Of a DNA stretch of 64,000 nucleotides, positions 9,904 through 41,768 are shown one piece after another. Source of the DNA: Cokeromyces recurvatus. Taxonomy: Eukaryota; Mucoromycota; Mucoromycetes; Mucorales; Mucoraceae. The notes beneath the pieces are model-generated. The model was not told the origin of the DNA. It ran no database searches and saw only the letters and a list, made by a program, of their open reading frames with translations. A program made the translations under genes and the position numbers. Where the stretch lies: positions 62,001 through 126,000 of the forward strand of contig NW_026251414.1 in assembly GCF_025118155.1 (NCBI RefSeq). Direction: 5' to 3'. How positions within the stretch are numbered: the stretch's first letter is position 1; each line of letters opens with the position of its first letter.

Positions 9904-11543
9904 GAAAAACAAGAAGGGGTCAATCAATTGTTTATATCAGGAGATTATAGCGTTTCCAATTTAATGAACTTTATCATTGATAATAAATTATAAATTCCAT
10001 TATAGAAACTGATAAGGATAAAGTAAACTGATTACAATTATACCAAAATTGTCTTTCAACGTAATTCTTCAAGGGGAAAAAAAAATTTAAAATAGGATAC
10101 TGTATTTTTCGAGTCAAAAGGTCCATAATACAACTATAATGCTTTATTTAACAAATCTGTATAATATTTAGTGAGCTTCCATACGGATTAACGCGATAAG
10201 AATGCTTTTATTCAAACTAATAAACGCGACGCGTCGTACTTTGAGAAGCTGCTGTTATTATTACAGATTAAGACACCGAATACATGTAGTAGTTGTCTAC
10301 GAATATACAACAACTATAATTAGGGTGAAGGAGTAGAGAGTGCATCAGATATATTCAATGAAGCTGATTTTCACATACATACATACATACATATATGTAT
10401 ATAAATAAATATAAAGAGTCTCACTCATATTGTTCTTCATTATTGCAAAAGCAAACTATGCAACACATAATGTATAAAAATAGACAGAAAAAGAAAACAA
10501 AAGCTTAAATCAATTCAGGAAACAATTTTTTTTTTTTTTTTTTTAAGACAGGTTATCTAGGAGAATAAAAAAGTAGGCTGGTGATTTCTCCGCTTTTGCA
10601 TTTTATCATTCCCACTCCTCCTTCCTCACTTTCCCTCCCTCCCCCCCCCGCAATTTTCTTTTACCGAACTAACAGATTATATAATTTATCCGAAATCTTC
10701 TTACGATGATTTTTGTCACCTTTCTATTACTACTCATAAATCAATATGTTATAAAATAATAATTCATTCCATGTTTGGTACCTGACAGCTCTGGCAAACT
10801 ACTACTCTTTGTTAAATAGAGAGAGATACTTGAGACAACAAAACGATAGGATCGTCACTTCAGTTGTAGTAACTGTTTTCATTGTAGAGCAAAGATTAAT
10901 TATAGTTTAGCTCCTTATAGAATTAGTTTATACAAATATATACTGACACGCAGAAGGAGATATAAAAAAAAAACGAAAAAACAAAGCCAATTATGGGCTA
11001 TATCTTAAAAACGATTTTAATAGATAAAATAACTGTCAATTACATATAAACTAATTTTAGTGATTGCTTAAAAGAGAACTTCTCTCTCTCTCTTTTATTA
11101 TGATTATTATTTCATGATTAAAAGTAAGGTCTACCTATAATTTATTAGATGCGGCTGCTTTTACATACAACGATTTTATTTTGGGTGGTGTAACAACGGA
11201 ATCAGCAATTTTTTTTTATTGTTTTGTTTTCCATTTATAGTATTTTTCATTTATGATGCATATATTTTGTATTCACTAGAGAATAAAAAGGAAGTTTGTA
11301 AACAACATAGAACAAAGATAACTTATTTTATTTATATATTCATATCTTATATTGTTTACACTCTGGTGATCTGGATTTAAGTATCATGTTGAATTGAGAA
11401 GTAAAAATAAAAAATAAAAAATAAATAAAAAGTATTATGATTTATTTTATACGCGTATATAAAGAGGGAATAATTATATAATATTAAATATAAAGATGTA
11501 GTGCAGTTTTTTTTTCTTTTTTTATAGTAAATAAAATGATGGG
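9798..11543. other. 1.7-kb spacer between convergent genes, no gene seen
   Basis: Lies between the 3' ends of PRS1 and the bZIP gene. It has an A-run at about 9871-9899, CATA and CT tandem runs (about 10375-10395, 11080-11095), and three CGCG sites, in aacgcgat at about 10190, acgcgacgcgtcg at about 10225, and tacgcgtatataaag at about 11451. The last combines a CGCG palindrome with a TATA-like stretch, but I find no ORF or recognisable structured RNA near it. Confidence 0.5.
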
Positions 11544-13075: not shown

Positions 13076-16000
13076 TTAAACTTCATTATGAACTTGCTCT
13101 TCAGGTTTGCTATTATTAGTTGACAGATAGACTTCTTCAGATTCAATGTCAAACAAATAATGATAATTTAATATAAAATATTTTACAATATTTTGATGAT
13201 GACCTAAATTAGACATAGTAGTTGCAAATGATGCTGGTCCTGGTGCTGGCTGTAATAGTGTGGGTCCAAATACAATGGCTAAATTAGTTGCATACATATG
13301 ATTTGTTGCTTCAAAATCAGTGACACTACATATCATATTAGTCAGTTTCCTTTCCTTTCCTTTTTTTTTAAAAAAAAAATTCTATTTTTTTACTACTTAC
13401 ATGACAAAATGTTCAATAATTCTTTTTAATAAAACATAATTACAGTGAGGCAGTTTCTTTAAAACCTTTTTGAGCAAATAAATACGTTCATCATGATCTT
13501 CAGAAGCTTTATACATATAAATAAATAAATAAAAAATTAAATATTTATCTCTCTCACTTTTTTTTTGTTAGTTTTAGCTTACCTGATGCCATGATGAACT
13601 CGTTATAGTAAGTGTAAGTCAATAATGGCTCGGGCAACTCTCTCAAGAATTGTTTAAAAGCATCTGCAATGACATTAATATCCATCCATTTAGGTTGACT
13701 TAAATCTACTTTAGTTGCATCCTTATTAAATTCTGCTTTAAGTGCACTAACGACAGATCCAGTACCAGCTACACGATAAATGCCCACCTCTTCTAATCCA
13801 CGTCTTTCAATTTCACGTATACATTTCTCTACAACAATAGGAATCATGTTGTCATGCATAAGTGTTTCCAGTTTAACTCCATAAACGGATGTACGAGAGG
13901 CTGGCTGATTACGATTATTATTATTATTATTATTATCCATTAAAAAGGCCTCATGATTATCGTGTTCCATCGATTCGGCTGCCAAGACGGATTGTCGTTT
14001 AGCTGCAGCCTCACGAGATGCATTATTAATCTCTTGCAACCAGTCATGCATATCTTCACGATGAACGGCTTGAAACAAATATTGCCCACCTTCTTCGGTT
14101 ACAACACGAAACACAAAATCTCGTTTAGTATACGTACTGGCAACTGATGTTGTAGCATGAATCAAGTTGATGACTGTAGAGGCCTTAGTAGTTGCATCAC
14201 GATCAACAATCGAATGTGTACCCACCATGGACTGTGGACGCAAACCACGTAAAAAGGAATTAAGACGAGGCATAACACCATTATGATGATGATGATGCTG
14301 TGGTTGACTTGTTGGTAACGACTTGTTATTATGGCTTGTTTTTCGGTCTTGTTTTTCCACTAATCGAGCTTGTTCAAGCTGCTTCTTTTGTAACTTTTGC
14401 TGCAATGTAAGCCATTCCCTGTCCATCCTGTCTCGTTCTTTAAAGTCACGTTTTAATTTTTCTAATTGCTCTGTCACTAATTTGCTAAAGACGATATGTC
14501 GAATGCTGCCCTTGCTCGATGTAGTTCTGACCACAAGACTATTGACTGACCTTTTATTTTCTCGTATTGCAAATTCCTTGAGATCCTTCCAACTTTTCGT
14601 AGATTTATTTGGCGAAATCAAAAATGACATACTGAGACCTTTTGCTTCAGCGGGTTGTTCATTGAGGTCTTGTTGGATATTCATGATGAATTGCATAAAT
14701 TGATAAAGGCTACGTCGCTTGTCGAAATGAATCATCTGTCTGTTCTCAGCAGGGGCATCAGGAGAATGTGTACATAATTCAATGATACGCTCAAAGATCC
14801 AACCTAAACTTGGTACAACTGTTGTACTATTATTATTATTATTATTTGTAGTAGTCACAGTGGTTGAGACGACATTCTTCATCAATTGAATTTGACTTAA
14901 AAGGTTTTCAAGGGTGTCCAAGTTGGCATGGCCATAATGAACAGCGATATCGCTCCATGCCTTTGTAAACAGTCGAACCTCAGGACTGACGAGTGCAGTT
15001 GCAATGGCGTACTCTACGAAACCGGGCATACGACCCACGTGACTATCTGTCGAAACTGTCATCCTCTGACTCATTAATCTACTAGACATAATCATTTGCA
15101 AGAACTTTTCAATACGCGAGAAACGTGTTTTGGAGTCAATGTGAGTCGCTATGATTTCACTTATAACCCAACTACGAATAATAAAATGCAAGTAGTAAAG
15201 GTATTGAATTGAACTAGGAAAGGCCAAGAGGAGGTCATCATCTGTATAGGCGGAGGGAGCAACCAATGATCGCTTGGCACTTTCGATTGCTGTAAAGATA
15301 TCGGACACAACCACATCCTCGAGAAGGACATGATGGCTAGATAAAAAGGAGGTAGGTGCAAACAAGACAGGGGCCAATGCAGCGTTAAGACGAGAGGTTC
15401 GAGATGGCTTACGAGGAGGTAACCATGCATGGATATCCTCTAGTTGTGCTTCCAAGATACCAAATGTCTGTATCCATTCCTGTAGAGTAATGGTACTAAA
15501 TAATTGATGTACAGCATGGTTAACTTGATCTAATAAAGTATCAGAAGAAAATTGATCTAGAGGGCTCTTGGTGGTAGTATCTATGTCGTTGTGTGTTTGG
15601 GTCGAGATTGAAAGAGGCATTGATTTGTTAGTTGCTAATTGAAGTGTAATATGATAGCGATCTTTGGTTTGGTTTAATTGACTATAGACGGACTCAACCG
15701 TACGAATCACTTCAGGGTCAAAGTGAACTGCCTTCATGTCATAACAAGGGTCTAAACTCTTGTTCACAAACTGTTCTCGAATATCGATGATGCGCTGTTT
15801 AATCATTGCTGCTGTCTTGAGTGCCTCTGCATGTTCTGGTTTAATATCTTCATCATGACATTTGGCAAGCGGTACTGACCATTCTTCAAGCGCCCTCCGT
15901 GCTTGTCGTAAGAATTGGCTTATATAATGTGTTACCTCTATGTCATCGGCAAAATCGTATGGATACATTTGAACCCAATATAATAATAAATTGAGCACAC

Positions 16001-19000
16001 GAAGTTGAATCTTAGCTACCTTTTTCCAATCATACATCAGTATGTCATCTGTCTTGGTATCCATGGGCGTAAAATAGGTCTCTAACAAACTGATCGAGCT
16101 CGTTCGTTTCAAAGTAGACTTACATCGTTGTTTAGTTCCCAAAAATCGTTTTCTAAACATATTAAGCAATTCGTTTGATGAGCAATAAATACGATATGTC
16201 ATAAAAAAAGTTTGAACGTATTCTTTTTCATCCATGATGACTCTTTTTAATTTACGTTGTTGAAGCCCTTCTGATAATAAACTCATTTGCCATTGTTCCC
16301 TAAGACTTGACTCATAATTTGATAGACCGAATACAAGAATATCTACTAATTGCTCTAAACTACCAGACTTGATTGTGACAAGTAATACATCTTCATCATT
16401 CGTACCTTCGTAATCACCTAAATACAAAAAATAAATAAATTAAATTAATACAATAATAATAATAATAATAAAAATCTACATGAATATGAATTATAATGAT
16501 CGTAACTACCTTTTTCTTTAAGAAAATCAAGGTTAGGCTCTTTAACTTTTGATAGAATTAAAGCAGATTCATTTTTAAGAATAGCAGAGACCTTAAAAAC
16601 CAAGTCGTGTACAAAAAGAACAATATCACCGTCCATATCATATTGAACAGCACGACTCTTACGATGCGCTTCAATTAGAGTTCGTGTTGAATAAGTACGA
16701 TGGGATCGATTTGAAAGTAAAGAGCCTAGCCAGGTTCGATTACCATCTGATTCTAATAGATCTGTAGTTGTAGTTGTAGTTGTAGCCTTGGTGCTAATGG
16801 TCTGTACACTACTACTACTTTCATTCATACTACTACTACCTGGTGGGAAACTATAGGTGCGACGACAGAATGCTTTACGATAATTGCTGATAAGAGCATC
16901 TGTATCAGACGTATTCACCAAACTGGCACTTGAATTAGATTGTGTAGTAATACCTGTTTGTTTTTTAGTAGCAGTAGCAGTAGCAGTAGTAGCAGTAGTA
17001 GTAGTAGTAGTAGTAATACTACTACTACTACTGTTATTATTATTATTATTACGATCATCTTCTAAAAGGGACCGAAGAGAACGAATGCTGTTGTTCTTGT
17101 GTGGATGTGTTTTTTTAAATGACTGTTGTGTAGTTGAATAGCCCTGATTTGTACTCGTGTTTGACCTTTTTTTTATGATAGGCTCATTTGTTAATAAACT
17201 AAAACTGTTCAAGATGTTGGGGAATACCAAGCAAGACATTGAAGGAGGAGTTGCGAGCTCTGAAGGACTAGTTGCTTGTTGTATCTGTGATCGTCTATTG
17301 AATGTTGTACAATTAAAGATTTGTCCAAATACTTTAGGTTCACAAGCTAATGAGCATTCTTGAAGATATTTGTAACTATGCGGCACCGACATAAATTCAG
17401 TCACTGAATATTCAAAGAAAGATTGTAAAGGACTAATGAGTGGGGTACTGTTGTCTGATAGCACCTGAGGATGATGGTCATTTATCCATTCATTTAAACT
17501 TGTTGTAATCATTTCATAAATATATTGACACTGAAGAAAGTTGACTGCAGTTGGTGTTTCTAATTTTTTTGTTGTGTGTTTTCTGAAGCGATCAACGGCT
17601 TGACGAATCGTACCAAAGAAGGGCAAAGGGTTTTGAGGAATTTCTAGGTTGAGTAAGGTAGGTGAAAGTTCATAGATGGCAAAGACATCATGTATATCTA
17701 ACACTTTACAAAACTGTATCAGCATGGGCGGTTCCCCCCAACTCTCATTCCATACGTCCAGCGTAAATAATCCATAATCAGCCAATAGACGTACCCAGTC
17801 CGTCTGTACATGATTGACTAACTCTCGATTCACGCATTTCCAGCTTTCACGTAAACGAACAATACCGACTGAACAAACACCGATTGCAACAGCACACCAG
17901 CCCGTCATATCGCCCAATTTGATTAACTCTAATCCAATATGTATCCAATGCTCCAACAATTGAGATCGTATGACGGCATCATCTTGAGAATCAATTAAGA
18001 TTTGATTTCGTATAAGTCTTGTTAAGAAATGAGGAGAGGTAGTTGTAAAGAGTAATGAGTTTAGCATCTGAGCAGAGGTTTGAGGTCGAGGCAAATAAGA
18101 TATTGGATTTAACAAGTCTTGTTGGAACTGTTTATACTTTGAGAAATGAAAGAGATAAATTTGTTGTGCAAAACTTGCGGGGTCCATCTGTAAGAAAATA
18201 TCCCTTGTAAGTCCTGTGATGAGTAAATTAGATAGATTGATAGAAGAATCACGACGTTTATTGTCTAATTGACATGTATTGATATTTTCTACTTCATTTG
18301 TATTTTGTATTTCATCATCATCATCATCATCATCATGATCTTCTAACGATAAAGGCTTTGCTGTTGTCATTGTAGGCACTATTGAATAATTAAAAAGAAA
18401 AGAAAAGAAAAAAAAAAGAGAGAGAGAGAGAAAAGAATTAAAAAAAAAAGGGAGAGGGAAAATTTATCTATCACCCACACTTATATTAAATACTTGCCTA
18501 TGGCTTGCACACATGTCTTTTTTGTATTTTCAGCTACAGTCTTGAGAACCAGCTCTTTGACTTGATTCGTATTACTATATTTATCTAACAGCTCCATCAT
18601 TACAGTTGCTACATCCCCCATCACATCTAACGCATATCGTTCACACCAAACAGTAAAGATCTCCAGTAGACGTGATTGAAATGAAGGTTCCCCTTCTTCC
18701 AAAATCGATTTGATTTCATTTAAAACATGTGAACCCGATGTAAATAGAGAATAAGTTAACAAAAAGACATTTAAATACTCATGATTTCCCTCAAAGAGTT
18801 GGCGTACAAGGGCGTGAAGACTACCTCCTTGGATTTCGTCGGACCGATGATTCCGGCAAGTCAAGTTATCTTGTGTAGCGTCACACATATTAATCTGATC
18901 TTCTTCTAACTGATGAAAGACATTGATCCAAGCTTGGCCTAATTCACGGTATTGAGTAGAGTACATACCCAAGAAGGTAGAGGGACGATGAATGAGATTA

Positions 19001-19811
19001 AAGAAAAGACCATTAGAATAATCCGACTGTATTGAACTAAAGGAAGCAGGAGAGATAGGTGTGATGGTATCATTGATTTCGATTTTCAAGTCCTGAATAG
19101 GCACTTTCTTTTCAATCTTCCATAACTGGCCAATATCAGGACGAATACAGATATAAAGTGTGTCGTGCATGAGTACCAGATAGACCTCTTGTTTTGCCAG
19201 CATTGTAACTGGATTCAATTCCATAAATACACAACCTTTCGAATTTGATAAAAACAAGAGTTGTTGAGCTTCACGATCAAAATCAGATTTTACGAGTTTC
19301 ATTGTTGTATTTGATAACGAGTGATGACTTGTAGACTTATAAGATGGAGATAAAGATCGAAGAGATGATTCAGATGTTAGTTTATAAAGGTATAATTTAT
19401 GTCCTCTAAGAACAACTCGGTATAATTTCCATCCACGATCATTTTGTTTATGAAAAGGTCTAAAATCAGTCTTTTTAAATAAATAACCTTCTTTTACTAT
19501 AATTAGACTCGTTCTTTTTTCAACATTGACAGAGTCTACTTTAGGTTTTGCAATTTGAATTGTTGCTGGTAATTCAGTTGATAAAGAATCCATTCCCATC
19601 ATGGACATTGGTCGTACTTTGGAGGTAAATTCCATCAAAGAGTTGTCATCTAGGGATCTCGATAAAGGTTTATCTTCTGTAAACTCATTTTTTGTTTCTA
19701 TTGACCAAGGTTTTATAACAGCAGATCGAATAGAAGAAATAGAAGGACGTGGGCCATTTATTTTTTCAGTCTGTTGTATAGTGTTATTATTAGTGTTGTT
19801 GTTGTTGTTGC

Positions 19812-19842
<31 letters not shown>

Positions 19843-19950
19843 ATTACTTGAAGAAAAGAAGCGATTCTTTAGAAATGAAAATGCATTTCGATGGATGGAA
19901 TCTTCTTCTGAAGGTAAGGTTGTATTTCCCTTGTTCTTTCTTGACTTCAT
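13076..19950 (-). CDS. BEM2: Bem2-like RasGEF/PH/RhoGAP polarity protein
   Basis: Five exons, complement(13076..13325, 13401..13506, 13583..16417, 16510..18378, 18498..19950), encoding 2170 aa, almost the length of yeast Bem2 (2167 aa). Domain order: poly-Asn/Ser N-terminus; a PH-like region (about 150-350); a RasGEF-N helical segment (about 370-485); a CDC25-type RasGEF domain (about 520-760, DMTGWCAVAIGVCSVGIVRL); Ser/Thr/Asn low complexity; a second RasGEF-like half (from GDYEGTNDEDVLLVTIKSGS, about 1108 on); a PH-like segment near residue 1900 (FRVVTEEGGQYLFQAV); and a C-terminal RhoGAP. The RhoGAP has the arginine finger in EEVGIYRVAGTGSV. Bem2 inactivates Rho1/Cdc42-type GTPases at sites of polarised growth; the RasGEF parts are probably degenerate scaffolds. 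The intron at 18379-18497 has a GC donor (AG|GCAAGT). Confidence 0.87.
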
Positions 19951-21744
19951 CGCCTAATGACGGCGATTTTGAATCTATAAAAAAAAAAAATAAGAAAAAA
20001 AAATAAATAAAAAAATAAAAAGGTTAAAGAAAAAATAAGAAAAATAAGATAAAATAAAATAAAACTGAAACCTTTTTTTTTAAATTTTTATTTTATTTTT
20101 TTCTTATTTTATTTTATATTTTTTTTAATAATACGTTTAAATAAAGGGTTTTTTTTTTTTTTTGTTATTTTCAACCTCCCCATTTTGCTACTAAAGTTCC
20201 CAAATGCAGTAAGTTTCAAAAAAGTAAATGTTTGAGAATCTTCTATATCATCGTTTGTTGTGTGCAAGTGCTAAATAATAACACACTTTTATTTCCATTA
20301 TATAATTTGTTACAGCAACGAGTTTGAAAGTGAGATGAATAGGTTCTGTAGTATGAATCGTTCTGTTATTTCGAGTTAAAAAGAGCTCCTTACCTACTAA
20401 TTATAAAAGGAGATGGTAATTATTATTTTGTTGATGACTAGTAGTATTATCAACTAAGCCTCTTGAAAGTAATGATTATCAATAATTGTCCTATTATTTT
20501 ATTTTTTTCAAATACACACAGCTATTCCTCAGTTTAAAATAAACAGAGAGCAAAAATCACTCGTACTCCTCTCAGTCATGTATTAGAAAAAGGAAAAAAA
20601 AAAAAAAAAAAAAAAAAAGGGGGAGGAGGGTTTAAGTTGCCTATTTCTAATAAGACTATTATGTAAAGTAAAATACTTTTTATTATGATGATGATGATTC
20701 AATTGTTTGTATTTATAAGGCTTATAACATATTAAAAAAGATTCTTTCAATCTATATTATCGAATTTAATAATAAGCTTTACTTCAAGAGTAGGGTAAAT
20801 TTGTATTTTCTCCCTTTTTCTTTTTTATGAATTTAATTATTTTAGTGAATATCAAAGCCATTCTAATAATGATTGAAGGTTGTATCGTTATTTCTCTTGA
20901 CAAAGTCTTCTTTTATATGAATATATATATATAGGCCTCATGTTTTCAATGGTATTAAGTTGGAAACGATGACTTGTATTATTGTACTTTAGAACTGTCA
21001 TGTTTGTTCAACATGTAGGGTGTAGATTAAATTACAATAAGGTAAATAGTAATTTTTGCTGAAAGTCGCTTTACTAAATGAATACAGATAATACCCAAAG
21101 CATTTCATTATCATCGTACCCTTTTACAGATAATGGAAGTTAAATCATCATGTATTATTACATAATGAAAGAGGTTATCCCCATATAATAAAAACTAGTT
21201 TATTTATTATACTTTACAGCATCATATTCCTTCAGCTCTAATGATAATACTATCTTAATACTTAGTACTGTTATCGATTCATACCACTATGAATAAGCAA
21301 TAGTCACACTATTATACTCGTTTATACAACTAGTCGTTCTCCTTGTATTATGCACTCTTTAATAAATTATAGACTTGACTTTTGCTTTCTTTGTAAAATT
21401 AAAACAGAGGTGTGATAAAAGTATTCAATAATACAATTATTATGTATTAACACTAATTTATCTATTTGTAGGAAGCACTGAAACAAATTTAGATAATATA
21501 AATATCAATATTTATATATGTATATATTTATATGTATGTTTATATATTGAGTGTAAATAAATAAATATGTTTATGCTGACTGTAGAGGAAAAGTCATATT
21601 ATATTAATCTAAAAAATTTATTAAATTACACAAAACATTTTAATCTATTTTATTAGTCGGACAAAAAAAAAAAAAAAAAAAAAAAAAAGTAATAATTTTA
21701 TTTATATTTTTAAACGCAAAACCATTGTGTCTATTATACTCATC
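19951..21744. other. Divergent upstream region of Bem2-like and Rgd1-like genes
   Basis: 1.8 kb of very AT-rich sequence between the start codons of two Rho-GAP genes. It holds A/T tracts (about 19980-20160, 20591-20618, 21664-21688). No ORF or RNA gene is supported. It must contain both promoters, but I recognise no defined operator. Confidence 0.5.
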
Positions 21745-29833: not shown

Positions 29834-31677
29834 TCAAGGGCGTTTAGTGAGATTGAAAACTTTTTTTTGTGAAGGAATAGCAGACCGTCCAATACCAAGA
29901 CGTCTTTTCTTAATTGGCATTTCCTGAATTGATGAAGGATCAAGAGGCGGAGATGGTGATAATGATGTAGGAAGTACGTCTTCTTCTTCTTCTTCATCCT
30001 CCTCAGAATTTAAATTGAATTCTAATATTTCTTCTTCTTCATTTTGAGCAGCTTCAATTGAACGTTTTTTTCCTTCATAAACAGATACTTCCTCATCCTC
30101 ATCTTCAGAAGAAGAAGGTACAATACTCGATGTTCTATAAAAAGTTTGACCTGAAACAGCAGCAGCAGCAGCAGCAGCAGCAGTAGAAGAATCATCGGAT
30201 ACTGATACTGACCTTTTGTTTATTCTTCCCGTTGTTTTTGAATTCGTATTTCTTTTTTGTTTCAGACCTTTTTCAGCATGCTTTTTTTTATTAGCTGGGA
30301 TTTGATGATTATCTTCAGCTAATAACATTGGGGTTTCATTCCTTTCTTCCTCCACTTCATTGTTATCTTCATCATAATAGGCCTCACGCGGAATCTAAAA
30401 AAAGAAACTGCAAAATTATACCTTCTATTTGTGTTACACAAATTTCAAAATTTTACCTGAGATGATATTTCAACCCCATTAATGTCTCTATGTTTCAATG
30501 CACCTATCAAAAAAAATTAGAATTATAGGATGAAATTACACTTTTTTCCCCCAGCTACCTACCCATAAAAAATGCAGACGAAGGTATACGATTTTCAGTT
30601 AATAGCATTTTGACTTGATAAATAACAATTTCTAGAGCTTTCTTTAAGGGTGGTACATAGGAAGCTAATTGTACTTCTTTTAATACTTTGACATGAGAAC
30701 AAATAATCTATTCATAGAAATAGTATGCTTAAAATGGTATATATAAATAATTATTCATCTATTTTTTACCTGTAGCATACGAGTACTGGATTGAAAATCT
30801 TTAAAAATATTAACTACTTCATTCGTATGTGTTTTAAATATTTTTGTAAAATAAGGAATAGAATATTTTGTAAATTGCTCAATAAATACTCGGCCTGTCT
30901 TCAATAAAATACTAAATAACGATTTATGCTCCTTTGTTTTAACATAATTTGTAATTCTCTCGAATATTTTCACAATTTGAGCATTTTGCACTAGAATAAT
31001 TTCAGAATCCTGATTAGTATTTTTAAGTAAATCCAGTGTTTTTACTATTTGATTCATGATAGCCTAAAAAGAAAAGTATATGTTTATACGTGTTAAAGGA
31101 TATACTGCATAAAAAGAGAGAGAATTTACCTGATAGTGTTGAACAATTGTTTCTTCCTTTAATAAAGGATATTGCTCTAAACTTTGTTCTTCCTCAAATT
31201 CAGGCAACACAATATCAACAAGGTTATGAAGAATAGATAAAGGATCTTGATTTAATTCAATAAATTGTTCAAATAAGAATGGTATTTCTTTCTTAATATC
31301 ACGCCAGTCAAACCATGGTGTTGTAATGATTTGCTCAACTACTTTTAATGCATCTTGTTTTAAATTTTCAATTCCTTCTTCATCAGAAAAGGACATTAAA
31401 CGTTGTAAGATTTTAAATAATAAAACTGACATTGTTGCTTGAGGTATTCCATCACCATAATTTGATAAATATCGAAATGCTTCCATTAATTCAGCTTTGA
31501 ATGCTATTTGACAATCATTGATAGTATCATGATCAGATACACGATTAGCGAGAATATGTACGAATTCTTTCAAGATGTCATTATTATCTGAATTTTGAAG
31601 TTCATTCCAACATAATAGTTTATATAAAATGTTGAATATATGTGAGACAGCTTGAACGAGTTCCTCTGATCCCTAAA

Positions 31678-31725
<48 letters not shown>

Positions 31726-34700
31726 ATCATTTTTTCATGTCTGATGAACAAACAAAATAAAATCTTACATGAATACGCCCTGGTTCAATATCCTACATTC
31801 AATTTAAATATCAATGATTCCTTTTATGTATTTTATTAGTATCATTCTTTCTTACCTTTGCTTGTAACTCAGCATAAAGATTTTCCAGTGTTTGTAAAAT
31901 AGATGGCAAATAAAGAACAACCTAAAATAAAAGTGATTAACATAGAGAGAGAACCAGTATGTTTGTATGTATGTATATATATTTACCTTTTTCATAAATG
32001 TTTGAGACTCAATTCTACCCAACATAATTGAGTTACAAGAAGGATATTTTTCGTCAATTAGATTGACTGGTTTTTTTCCAAAATGATGATTAACAGAAGA
32101 AGATGTATAGGTAATCTTGATATCTATTTTCTGATTAAGGTCTTCCAAAATATAATTGATTTCTTCAAACTAAATACATCAATAATAAGCTTATCATTTA
32201 TTTTATATAACTCTTGGAGCTTTTTTACTTACTGTCATTTTTTCATTTTCATCCTCTAATTCTTCGTTATACTTGAATATTTCTAAAATATGAATCTATG
32301 CAAAAAAAAAAAAAAAGATAAGCATAGTTTCAAACAATACATAGAATGATAAAAAAAAAAATAGCATACACAGAATGCTCTCATATAAGGCTTGATTTCA
32401 TTCACAGTTCCAAATCTGATCGTATGGGCTTTTTCTTTTTTAATTGACTTGGTATTCATACTATCTTCTCCTTCTCCTACTCCTGCGGATATAATTTGAT
32501 TGCTATGTTCATCCAAATTTGTCGGTGATACGTTATGGAATTCTAAGGGCGCATAGTTGGGTACTTGTTCCATTAATTGGTTCAATAATGTTTCCATTTT
32601 GAGAATACTTCTTAAACGGGAAATTATTCTTACTCTGTAATTTTCTTCTTTTGTAAACATGAATGCATTTAATAGTTCTCTAAACCTTCAAGTAAAATAT
32701 AAGAGGGATAGCTTACTCATAAAATCTGACTTGTATCTTTATCATTACCAATTCATTGTATAAAATAACATATCACAAGCATATTCAATTTCATTTGTTG
32801 ACAAGTCATTTAAATTCTCAGGATTAAACATAATTATACTACAACCAAATAAAGCATCTATTTCTACAAGGCTTCCATTATTTAATTGCTTTTCACAACT
32901 TTGAATTAAATTGAAGATGGAACACATGGGAACTACCATTGCCTTTTTCTTTTTTAAATCTGGGTTGTAGATTAATTCATACATCTTGATAGCTATTTGT
33001 TCTCCCTACATACACACTTGTAAGTTCAAATAGACTATTATTGTTATTATTATTATAAAACATACTTCACCATCTAAATTCATTTGACGTGCAGGCTCTA
33101 ATTTTAAATAGTGATTCTTCTGTGCTTCTTCAATAAACTCAAGAGCATCCGCTATGGCTACTACGTAGAACTCTGTAAAATCAGATGCCATATTCTCTTT
33201 TACCCACCATTCTAATCTTTCATCCATATGTGCTCCCTTCTCTTCTCTACTAAACATATGTGCTAACTCATCATAAATGAGAGCAATACAATTTGGATAC
33301 TCTTTTGAATATCTCAAGGCTAATTCTAAAATTTGAGTTGCCTGTGTCAAAAGAGGGTGTCGAAGTGTAGCATCAGTTATGTTAAGTGCTAAAGACATTT
33401 GTGAGCTTGATGATCCTCCTACTTGATTGTTCTGAATACTACAACTATTGTTGCATAACTCTTTCGATCCAAGTACTTTGACAGCTGATAAACATGCAAT
33501 AATACCAATATTTTTATATTTTTCTCTAGGACTTGAAAGTTGCTTACGAATAATGGTTTGAATTTCGGTCCAAAGATTAGCTGACCCATCTCCTGGATTT
33601 CTTGTCTATATAAAAGTTTAAACAATCATTCTCTATCATTCTATATAATACTTACAGTTAATGCAAGAAGACTAAAAATATCAAATAATGTACGAATTTG
33701 ATATATACTTAAATTATCCAAATAATCCAAAATTCCTTTTATAAACACATTGTAAACAATGACACTGCATACGTCTGTTTTAACTAATTGTAATAACACT
33801 TCTAAAGCTATGTTCATTTCTACTTCTATACCACTACCAATATGTGTAACAAGTGCGCCGATTATTTCCTATTTCATGTATGAGTTATGTTGCCTTTTTT
33901 TTTAGCTTTTAATAAATACAAACCTGTCTAAAATATGCATCCGTAGATTTAAATGAACTCGTATACAAAGTACTTGCACAAGGCGATATTACATTAAACT
34001 GCTGACAAGAACGCAATAAGCTTTCTGATAATGATAATATGGTATTCCAATATCTATTTCAGGTATTAATAATAATACTTGTATTATATATGTATATGTA
34101 TGGCTTTACCCTGCAAGGCCATCTGAATGGTACATAATTGTTTCTTGGATAAGTGAAGCAGTAATATGTCCTTTTATTATTTTCTTTCTAATAACACCTT
34201 CCACTTTCTTTTTTATGGACGTCATTGAGTATAATATAATTAAAACTAGCATATCAATCACCTTATGTTCACGCTAATTATTAAAAAAAAAAGTCAGGTT
34301 AATAATAAACATTTTTTTTTTTTTACTCCCACTCTTCACAGTAATTTTACCTGGGATTCTAGAGCGACAATAGATTTGAACCAAGCATCACAAACAAATT
34401 TATGAAACTGTAATCCTAATTTAATGGATTCTAAAATAAAAGCTTCTGGCGCATGCTTTGTTGCTCTTTGAGTTGATGGATGAATTTTACTCAACGATCT
34501 AAAATCTAGCTTTTGTCGAATACCATAAATAATCGTATCCACTGTATTTGGTGTCACGGTCTGAAGCATAAATTTGATTATGACAGCTAAATCATCTAAT
34601 TCAGCAGATTCTAGTTGATCTAAAATTGTTTCTCGAACATCATCTAAGCTTTCTGAATGAAGTGTTAGGTTGGACAAGGCATCAAGAACAGACACTGTCA

Positions 34701-38822: not shown

Positions 38823-41565
38823 TTATCCACTACAGCTAACACAAGCTTCAGGATTTTCAAGAGAACAAGCAATAGCAGCTAATTGGTCAGCAGTCTTTTC
38901 AACTTCTTCCTCAAGATCATCCTTTGATTCATCACCCATATTCATTCTCATAGCATCAAGGGGACTTGTCTTAAGGAATTGCATACCAGTCTTTAACCCC
39001 TTCTTCCAAGCATAGAAATGCATAGAAGAAAGACGACTATAATTAGGATCAGCAGAGAACAAATTCATGGATTGGGATTGATCGATAAAGGCAGCACGAT
39101 CAGCGGCCATATCGATAATCACACGTTGAGAAATTTCCCAAACTGTCTTGTAGAGCTTCTTAAGGTCATCAGAAATAAGAGGAAGCTTTTGAACACTACC
39201 ATTGGCCTTAGCTAACATATCCTTTACTTGAGTACTCCACATACCACGCTCAATAAGGTCTTTGAGGAGATGGGGATTGACAGCTTGGCATTCACCTGTC
39301 ACTGAACGATGGGTGAAGATCATGGATTGATAAGGTTCAAAACTATCATTATTACCAAAGAATTGACTTGTCATCGTCGTAGGCATAGGTGCGACTAAAA
39401 GAGCATTACGAACACCATGCGTCTTAATATCAGCACGAAGCTGATCCCATTCGAGACGATCAGAACCCTTGACCCCCCACATGTCGTGTTGTAAAATGCC
39501 TTGACTCATAGGGGAACCTTCATAAGCAGAATAGGGACCATACTTTTGAGCTAATTCATTAGATGCCTTAAGAGCAGCAAAATAAATGGATTCAAAGATA
39601 TCCTTGTTTAATTGACGTGCTTCAGGAGAGTCAAAAGGATAGTGCATCATTAAGAAGACATCGGCTAAACCTTGAATACCAACACCAAGTGCACGATGCT
39701 TAAGGGCACTTTCCTTTACTTCATCCATGATATAATGGTTGACATCAATCATCTTGTCCAAATCTTTAACAACAGCATTGACCAAGTCATGAAGGACATC
39801 AAAATTAAAGGTACGTGTATGAGCATCAACACATTTGGTAAGTGCGATAGAGGCAATGTTGGTAGAAGCAATTTCGTTACCATTAGCGTATTGAACAATG
39901 TTCGTATTATGGCTAGAACCAGAAATAACGCCATTATGTTTTTGGTTACTCTTTTCATTAATAGCATCTATAATTAAATAAATGTTAACATTTTATACGT
40001 GTATTTTTCATATATATATATATATATATAACTTACCCTTATAACACATGAATGGCATACCACTCTCAATTTGAGCATCCAAAATGGAAAACCATAACTT
40101 TTGAGCAGAAACCGTCTTTCTTGCCTTACCCATTTTTTCATATTTAATATAAAGTTCTTCAAATTCTTTACCATAAGTGGTATCAAGACCAGGGCATTCG
40201 TTAGGACACATTAAAGACCATTCACCATTCTCTTCAACACCTATAATAGTTTATTAAAAGGTAAGTAAGGCATAGAAACCCCCCTCCATACACACACATG
40301 TATAAAATAGATAATAACTTACGTTTCATAAAGAGATCAGGGATCCAAAGACCAAGAAGAAGGTGACGGGCACGAAGGTTTTCTTCACCACTATTCTTGG
40401 AAAGATCAATGTATTCAAAGATATCATAATGCCAGGGTTCAACATAAACCGTAAAAGTACCCTTTACCTTTTTGGCACCAGGGGTAATATAACGAGCGGC
40501 ATCATTAAAGACACGTAACATGGGAATAATACCATTAGAGGTACCGTTGGTACCAGCAATATAGGAACCAGAAGCACGAATCTTTTGGAAACTCATACCG
40601 ACATAACCAGATGCTTTGGAGATACGAGCACAGGTAGCAACAGTATCGTAAATACCCTCAATACTAAATATGAAATATTAATTTAGATATTTTTTTTCTC
40701 TCTCTTTCTCTCTTTCTTTATTTTTTAAGCGTACCTGTCTTCTTTCATTTGGACATCAAAGAAGCTTGAAAGTTGATTATTAGGAGTACCAGCATTCATA
40801 AGAGTAGTAGCAGCAAAAGTAAAGAATTTACGTGAGGTAAGATCATAAGTCTTGAAAGCAGCTTCTAAATCTTCACCATGAATGGCAAGAGCAACACGCA
40901 TCATCATATGCTGAGGACGTTCTACAACCTTCTCACCAATCTTCATGAGGAAATTTTGTTCAAGTGTCTTGAAACCAAAATAGTTGAAATCGAAATCACG
41001 TTGGTAATCGATGGTGGCATCAATTTTATCGGCATGTTTCAAAACCAAATCCAAAAATTCTTTGGAGATTAAGGGATTATGAGCCTTTGTGATGGGATGA
41101 ACATTATTATATAAATCTTGCATAACTCTGGAAAATTTATCATGAGTTTCCTTTTGAAGATTAGATACTGAGAGACGAGCAGCTAAGATAGCATAATCAG
41201 GATGAATGCCTGTCATATCAGCGGCGATTTCTGCAGCCAAGTTATCTAATTGAACTGTTGTAATACCAGGATACATGCTTGAAACGACCTACAGAGCGTT
41301 ATATTCTTTAGTCAATTGACATTAATATATATACATTTATGTATATTTATTTATTTATTTATTTAAAAGCAAACCTTTTGAGAGATCTTTGGTGGGTCAA
41401 CAAAGTTTTCATCGAGACCTTCACATAAGATATTTATACGAGAACTAATTTTATCGAAAAAGACTTTTTCTTGAGTACCGTCTAGAAAAAAAAAGGAGTT
41501 TTTTTTTTAGATATAATACCAAAATGCTTATCAGAATATTGCTTACCTCTCTTTATAACATACAT
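38823..41565 (-). CDS. Ribonucleotide reductase large-subunit paralogue lacking active-site residues
   Basis: Six exons, complement(38823..39967, 40037..40240, 40323..40663, 40735..41288, 41375..41481, 41547..41565), 789 aa, all in phase. It is full length and alignable with eukaryotic R1: an ATP-cone at the N-terminus ([20 protein letters not shown]), [50 protein letters not shown] and a C-terminal redox tail, CVSCSG. Canonical R1 makes deoxyribonucleotides by radical chemistry. Here, in human register, Cys218 is Phe (LSSFFD), Asn427 Ser, Cys429 Asn, Glu431 Asn, Cys444 Thr, and the radical-path Tyr-Tyr pair is Gln-Phe (GMQFLKT). The NKRPGAFA block is also changed. No frameshift or stop is present. 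I read it as a pseudoenzyme that could still bind nucleotides, R1 or R2; a canonical RNR1 must exist elsewhere. The promoter has three ACGCG boxes. Confidence 0.88.
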
Positions 41566-41683: not shown

Positions 41684-41768
41684 TTCGCGTCTTAAAAACA
41701 CGTCTTATTTTATTATATAAATACATGTATATAGAAGAACGCGATTTTTTTTTTTAATAAAACGCGAA
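41684..41768. promoter_or_regulatory. Cluster of three ACGCG boxes upstream of RNR paralogue
   Basis: TTCGCGT at 41684-41690 (ACGCGAA on the minus strand), ACGCGA at 41739-41744 and ACGCGAA at 41762-41768, 119 to 203 bases upstream of the ATG at 41565. They match the core of MBF/E2F-type sites that control S-phase genes in fungi. The assignment is by motif only. Confidence 0.55.

Follow-up and report, generated by a model that had tools for sequence, protein, structure and literature searches.

How can a gene for the large subunit (R1) of ribonucleotide reductase (RNR) keep an unbroken reading frame when the residues for nucleotide reduction are replaced? The question is raised by a locus of Cokeromyces recurvatus, the product of which is here called pseudo-R1, and which lies in a window of 64,000 nucleotides (the whole stretch of DNA analyzed) that spans 62001-126000 of contig C21. 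The gene extends from 41565 to 38823 on the minus strand, with six exons and 789 codons plus a stop codon. The five introns are 65–86 bases each, all GT-AG, and the gene model contains no internal stop, which bears out the unbroken six-exon, 789-codon frame of the first-pass annotation. Residues are numbered in the mammalian R1 register, with P0098 as the ruler, and the exons are listed below.

Exon 1, 41547..41565, minus strand: start codon, 6 codons plus 1 base.
Exon 2, 41375..41481, minus strand: first half of the ATP-cone.
Exon 3, 40735..41288, minus strand: remaining ATP-cone (D57 kept), helical domain, Phe at position 218 (40761-40763), specificity-site D226 kept.
Exon 4, 40323..40663, minus strand: specificity-site K243 and R256 and loop 1 kept; loop 2 with Q288 to P and R293 to V.
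Exon 5, 40037..40240, minus strand: barrel.
Exon 6, 38823..39967, minus strand: catalytic finger, phosphate loop, region 673-712 (which we take to be the R2-tail groove), Y737-Y738 to Q-F, redox tail CVSCSG, stop.

A first exon of 19 bases is also present in the intact paralogues on C62, C14 and C4, and the N-terminus encoded by exon 2 matches that of the relatives P0003, P0004, P0012, P0013 and P0014. The deposited protein P0001, publicly annotated as an ordinary alpha subunit, is 100% identical to our model over the 94% of the model that it covers. It begins at Met47, and half of the ATP-cone is therefore missing from it; the longer N-terminus of our model is backed by the relatives with a full N-terminus. 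The predicted fold of pseudo-R1 is that of human RRM1. Elsewhere in the window, frames that match FancD2 (PF14631; crosslink repair) were observed at 31067-33605 on the minus strand, at a distance of some 5 kb from pseudo-R1. The minus strand also has three long frames side by side at 13557-19953, with RasGEF_N, RasGEF, PH and RhoGAP domains, from either one multi-domain regulator or tandem copies.

Reading the codons in the DNA confirmed the replacement of all three active-site cysteines: AAT at 39906-39908 in exon 6 (C429 to N), TTC at 40761-40763 in exon 3 (C218 to F) and ACC at 39861-39863 in exon 6 (C444 to T). The protein also has N427 replaced by S, E431 by N and Y737-Y738 by Q-F. In human R1, C218 and C444 form the redox pair, C429 carries the thiyl radical, Y737-Y738 transfer the radical, E431 and N427 are found at the ribose, loop 2 carries Q288 and R293, and S202 and T604-T607 are at the phosphates (PMC5819950, available in part). 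The earlier residue calls at 218, 427, 429, 431, 444 and 737-738 agree with the alignment, those at 218, 429 and 444 also with the codons, and further losses were found in loop 2 (Q288 to P, R293 to V) and in the phosphate loop (A605/S606 to T/M). The statement that every catalytic residue had been replaced holds for C218, N427, C429, E431, C444 and Y737-Y738, but not for S217, T604, T607 and the tail cysteines, which remain. As an enzyme, the product lacks all five of Cys429, Cys218, Cys444, Glu431 and Asn427. Given what these positions do in human R1, pseudo-R1 should not reduce nucleotides. An alignment slip as the source of the losses was ruled out, as the flanking blocks align in the mammalian register, and a pseudogene or sequencing error was judged unlikely from the identity of P0001 and the retention of the gene across a whole clade.

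This clade was recovered in a search of 5.8 billion proteins, from which the best 120 of 8,000 scored were taken as hits. The alignment contained 116 of these and the four Cokeromyces R1s; P0010, P0046, P0055 and P0061 (long or fused) were left out. Sixteen rows among the 116 aligned hits, eleven of them from ten named species in seven genera, lack the catalytic set, with P0001 represented by the window model in all counts. The eleven come from Cokeromyces, Benjaminiella, Mycotypha, Mucor lusitanicus (two models), M. mucedo, Rhizopus microsporus, R. arrhizus, R. stolonifer, Choanephora and Gilbertella; five further rows complete the 16. The 16 are not all independent evidence. P0016 is apparently a second model, of poor quality, of the gene that also gave P0005, P0007 differs hardly at all from P0009, and the model for P0033 is incomplete. 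The four rows scanned for domains contained the R1 barrel, all-alpha and ATP-cone domains, which places them in the R1 family.

The residues C218, Q288, R293 and Y737 are lost in all 16 rows, and E431 in all 15 rows that have a residue at that position, while Y738 is retained in six of the 16. None of the 103 intact R1 rows lacks C218, Q288, R293, E431, Y737 or Y738, where "intact" means all other R1 rows in the alignment and was thus assigned after the residue table was seen. Among the 100 aligned hits outside the 16, no loss occurs at C218, Q288, R293, E431 or Y737. On this comparison, the joint loss of the catalytic set in the clade is evidently not chance. Single catalytic residues persist, namely C429 in R. 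stolonifer and C444 in Mucor mucedo, R. microsporus and R. arrhizus. The R. stolonifer row (P0033) has C429, A605 and S606 and has lost C218, Q288, R293, E431, Y737 and C444, a combination that reveals an intermediate step of the decay.

A fast LG+G4 tree with SH-aLRT supports was inferred from 64 of the 120 aligned sequences, including 15 of the 16 dead rows. All 15 form one clade (SH-aLRT 100), which groups with the R1-B proteins of the same fungi (support 93.5) on a stem of 0.49 substitutions per site, a length that makes the exact attachment less certain. R1-B is a second active R1 type of Mucoromycota (Ck_C62, P0017-P0053 except P0033, and relatives) with T or N at position 287 in loop 2; the members examined in the loop-region alignment have GGGKRNG in place of GGNKRPG. 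The clade is placed within Mucoromycota R1 (supports 100 and 93.5), and the tree contains no viral R1. No dead member from Phycomyces, Lichtheimia, Cunninghamella and others was found among the aligned hits. A profile search with the 16 rows gave no further dead member by score gap among the best 120 of 7,999 scored; its 33 new rows (P0121-P0153) were judged by that gap and not residue by residue, so that lower-ranked or partial members could be missed. The Mucoromycota homologues and the tree that the first-pass annotation had named as a check on its reading thus yielded 16 rows without the catalytic set, 15 of them in one supported clade. The tree indicates that pseudo-R1 is a duplicate of the active paralogue R1-B and belongs to an old clade, and is no lone decayed copy.

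By Dollo count, C218, Q288, R293, E431 and Y737 were lost once each, on the stem; N427, C429 and Y738 were lost three times each and C444 six times. Since Dollo forbids regain, R. stolonifer is taken to have inherited its Cys429 from the ancestor. On the Dollo reading, the enzyme would have died once, after which the remaining pocket drifted.

The regulatory residues have a different fate. In human R1, D57 serves in dATP sensing, D16 in the ring, and D226, K243 and R256 in the specificity site (PMC5819950). D57 is kept in 16 of 16 clade rows, as are D226, K243 and R256, and both D16 and F15 are kept in the seven rows that have that exon. Loop 1 is identical at 17 of 17 positions in all 16 rows, and the tail cysteines C779, C787 and C790 are present in every row. 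These counts agree with the earlier description of the ATP-cone, the allosteric blocks and the C-terminal CVSC tail as remaining. Pseudo-R1 thus has the C-terminal CxxC and the regulatory residues, and may still bind nucleotides.

In the 103 intact R1s, 320 positions are invariant to at least 98%. Of these, 193 are conserved in every clade row that has a residue at the site, and 32 in none. In a separate count, the clade has 32 positions with residues that are nearly fixed within it and rare elsewhere (for example P288, V293, N322, S443 and M623), and its loop 2 is fixed in a new form. With kept or lost judged by clade majority, six of the at least 98% invariant sites were kept and 13 lost in the catalytic and loop 2 class, as compared to 14 kept and none lost in loop 1 and the specificity site (Fisher 5e-5). 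The ATP-cone had 36 kept and three lost, and all other sites in 93-792 had 222 kept and 41 lost (catalytic sites versus these, 1.4e-6).

Selection was measured as protein divergence relative to R1-B in matched species, in place of dN/dS. The comparison covered eight species for which both proteins were available; for two of them, R1-B was taken from a sister species. The mean ratio of pseudo-R1 to R1-B divergence was 1.69 (range 0.51 to 2.47, 28 pairs), and 1.89 (1.12 to 2.47, 21 pairs) for the seven species without Cokeromyces. Only 3 of the 28 pairs had a ratio below 1, all involving Cokeromyces, whose R1-B is fast; values without Cokeromyces are given in brackets below. Divergence in the catalytic finger was 0.454 versus 0.036 in R1-B, a ratio of 12.7 (10.9), and in the phosphate loop 0.342 versus 0.015, a ratio of 23 (21), both rough because of the small R1-B baselines. 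Region 613-637 was relaxed tenfold (12-fold); in the ring of human R1, a hairpin of this region shifts together with the cone (PMC5819950). Ratios were 2.7 (3.5) for region 201-254, 2.6 (3.0) for the R2-groove region, 1.45 (1.75) for the redox tail, 1.2 (1.3) for barrel 296-425 and 0.29 (0.21) for region 272-285. In the tail region, pseudo-R1 and R1-B differ at 52% of the compared residues, yet the cysteines are fixed.

Loop 1 showed no divergence in pseudo-R1 as compared to 0.088 in R1-B (0 versus 0.034). Since loop 1 of R1-B is nearly constant too, the constraint on pseudo-R1 loop 1 is retained and not extra; in protection relative to R1-B the loop 1 window ranks 43 of 775. Sixteen 17-residue windows are invariant in pseudo-R1 across the eight species, all within 253-284, and R1-B also has sixteen. 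The ATP-cone gave a ratio of 1.11 (1.33) over 1-92, a stretch for which several of the eight pseudo-R1 models lack the N-terminus wholly or nearly, and of 1.66 (2.40) over 47-92, near or above the protein average. The cone is thus kept about as well as the average of the protein, not specially. Overall, the divergence pattern indicates that the constraint is split, relaxed in the catalytic parts and retained in the regulatory parts. The view that the intact frame reflects selection is upheld in this form, with constraint on protein divergence persisting on the regulatory parts and lifted on the catalytic parts. That relatives show no stops counts for little, because a database of proteins records gene models, among which broken copies would not appear. 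From these comparisons, we conclude that pseudo-R1 is, in all appearance, a maintained pseudoenzyme.

The Cokeromyces genome contains three further R1 genes, on C14, C4 and C62, all with C218, N427, C429, E431, C444, Y737, Y738 and the tail cysteines; a second canonical RNR1, which the earlier reading presupposed, is thus present in triplicate. The C62 R1 is the closest of them to pseudo-R1 (59.2% identity), has a loop 2 of the R1-B type and has three intron places in common with the window gene, by arithmetic on the gene models. In the R1s of C62 (L011) and C4 (L010) the catalytic residues are intact but loop 1 has changed (IRGLGSPIAGTNSTSKG and IRATDSYIGGCNGEAHG), which is not the case in C14 and pseudo-R1. 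This suggests a possible reciprocal dependence of C62 and C4 on the loop 1 of a partner subunit; the pattern was seen in one species, and nine other intact rows also deviate in loop 1. Three R2 genes were found, all with the E-x-x-H-x-x-x-Y ligand block (read by eye), and by this block no Rnr4-like inactive R2 partner was seen among them.

The promoter had been described as carrying S-phase-like boxes, and the following sites are indeed present.

Three WCGCGW boxes, 41685..41767: pseudo-R1 promoter, within 83 bases, at -202, -179 and -125.

We take these to be MluI-cell-cycle-box-like. The window contains 10 WCGCGW sites as compared to 8.5 expected, three of the 10 in the pseudo-R1 promoter, and a second trio is located at 10191-10234; as evidence for S-phase expression, the boxes therefore count for little. 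The 600 bases upstream contain one site in C14, three in C4 and one in C62, and one, two and none in the R2 genes. The relative P0003 has 789 residues in a single frame, with contigs of at most 2,698 bases, and presumably derives from a spliced transcript.

What could such a protein do? We consider it about an even bet (probability roughly 0.5) that the R1 duplicate has been kept as a functional pseudoenzyme, a non-catalytic alpha-prime subunit that joins active R1 in mixed oligomers. The duplication would have occurred near the base of the Mucor-Rhizopus-Choanephora-Mycotypha group, with nucleotide reduction lost on the stem. Pseudo-R1 would pair with active R1 in dimers and join it in dATP-induced rings, with R1-B as the first candidate partner and R1-A as a possible one. 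Its ATP-cone would still be able to read ATP/dATP, its loop 1 would still contribute to the specificity site between the two subunits of a dimer, and its CxxC tail, for which its own dead site has no use, could re-reduce the active site of the neighboring subunit. Pseudo-R1 would thereby set the available active R1 and its answer to dNTP levels. Expression, hetero-oligomers, action of the tail in trans and the sign of the effect (activator or brake) are steps that we infer.

The specificity site of human R1 is located at the dimer interface, and loop 2 and the loop 1 of the neighbor touch the site (PMC5819950; the sentence is ambiguous and the neighbor reading was chosen). A good loop 1 next to a ruined loop 2 is what would be expected if the dead subunit serves the active site of its partner and not its own. 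In yeast, the R1 CxxC tail is said to act on the neighboring monomer, which would explain the persistence of CxxC in a protein without the redox pair, and even an inactivated Rnr1 mutant reportedly stimulates Rnr3. Electrons reach the active site by way of the CxxC in the tail (PMC3483043); action in trans was not found in the available parts of PMC3267527, PMC9221315 and PMC3483043 or in our literature search. A precedent for cross-talk between R1 isoforms is yeast Rnr3, which gains activity when associated with Rnr1 (PMC5673236). Against mixed oligomers stand, on the divergence data, the cone, which is evidently not specially protected, and region 613-637, relaxed about 10- to 12-fold. The tail region, with its 52% difference from R1-B, and loop 1, which R1-B conserves almost as well, weigh in the same direction. 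More tentatively, and at somewhat below even odds, we propose an asymmetric alpha/alpha-prime large subunit in the Mucor-Rhizopus-Mycotypha lineage, in which a dead dNTP-sensing R1 would complete the specificity site of its partner via loop 1 and feed it electrons via CxxC.

A moonlighting role outside nucleotide reduction is unlikely but deserves weight, since the 32 sites with residues that hardly vary within the clade and seldom occur in intact R1s demonstrate new fixed features, and since the ATP-cone is kept no better than the protein average. Such a role would resemble that of HCMV UL45, an inactive betaherpesvirus R1 homologue that acts on RIP1 signaling (PMC5469499). However, no added domain was detected in the four clade rows scanned, and the constraint sits on features for nucleotide sensing and on the redox tail, which belong to the regulation of a reductase.

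We regard it as slightly less likely still that pseudo-R1 is a decoy for the small subunit, binding R2 via the R2-tail groove, accepting no radical and limiting the active holoenzyme, without any need for mixed R1 dimers. The groove region 673-712 differs by just 19% between pseudo-R1 and R1-B, as compared to 61% in loop 2 and 70% in the finger, and Y737 is lost throughout the clade. The C-termini of the three R2s, which form the R1-binding tail, are FTLDADF in two and FSLDADF in one, and FTLDADF binds mouse R1 (PMC3483043). A decoy, however, could do without D57, the CxxC tail and the specificity site, all kept in 16 of 16 rows, and within the clade the groove region is 2.6–3.0 times more divergent than in R1-B.

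That pseudo-R1 is a functionless, slowly decaying relic is largely contradicted by the sequence data and very improbable: the drift at C429, N427, Y738 and C444 after the first losses and the preference of protein databases for unbroken models would fit, but the 193 of 320 invariant sites kept in every row with a residue there, the unchanged loop 1, the tail cysteines and an overall divergence just 1.7–1.9 times that of active R1-B do not. A reductase with altered chemistry or radical route has a very low probability despite C429 in R. stolonifer and C444 or Y738 in some rows, given the clade-wide loss of C218, Q288, R293 and Y737, the variation among relatives at 429, 431, 605 and 606, which leaves no new conserved site there, and the abolished activity in E. 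coli upon mutation of the Arg equivalent to R293 (PMC5819950).

RNR sets the dNTP supply and is also a drug target. A catalysis-free R1 with allosteric residues separates sensing from chemistry and permits each R1 site to be tested in a mixed oligomer. Because the clade includes Mucor and Rhizopus, RNR regulation in these fungi may differ from that in yeast and man. The clade rows that bear a source name are labeled as ordinary reductase or hypothetical, and the loss is thus unseen in annotation. Mucorales are said to have a B12-independent class II RNR, nrdJ (PMC7928374, available in part), a call that possibly reflects a divergent class I R1, like pseudo-R1, named by an automatic pipeline.

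A literature search of titles and abstract openings, which scarcely covered subscription literature, found no cellular inactive R1. Compared with eukaryotic class Ia R1 (human RRM1, yeast Rnr1 and especially R1-B), pseudo-R1 has the same predicted fold, ATP-cone, specificity site, loop 1 and CxxC tail, but the radical and redox chemistry of the active site is gone and loop 2 is fixed in a new form. Yeast Rnr4 is an inactive R2 and hence a paralogue of the small subunit, whereas pseudo-R1 is a large subunit. The likeness is one of logic only, a paralogue kept as a heterodimer partner (Rnr2-Rnr4; PMC5673236). Yeast Rnr3 is, like pseudo-R1 in our proposal, a second R1 that works via cross-talk with Rnr1, but it is a weak yet real reductase (PMC5673236), whereas pseudo-R1 lacks the needed residues. 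The betaherpesvirus R1 proteins (HCMV UL45, MCMV M45) are likewise retained R1 homologues without most catalytic residues (PMC5469499); these are viral and target host signaling, whereas pseudo-R1 is cellular and has kept its allosteric-site residues. If the proposal holds, the alpha/alpha-prime arrangement would match, on the side of the large subunit, the Rnr2-Rnr4 pair of yeast, and pseudo-R1 would be the first cellular R1 pseudoenzyme.
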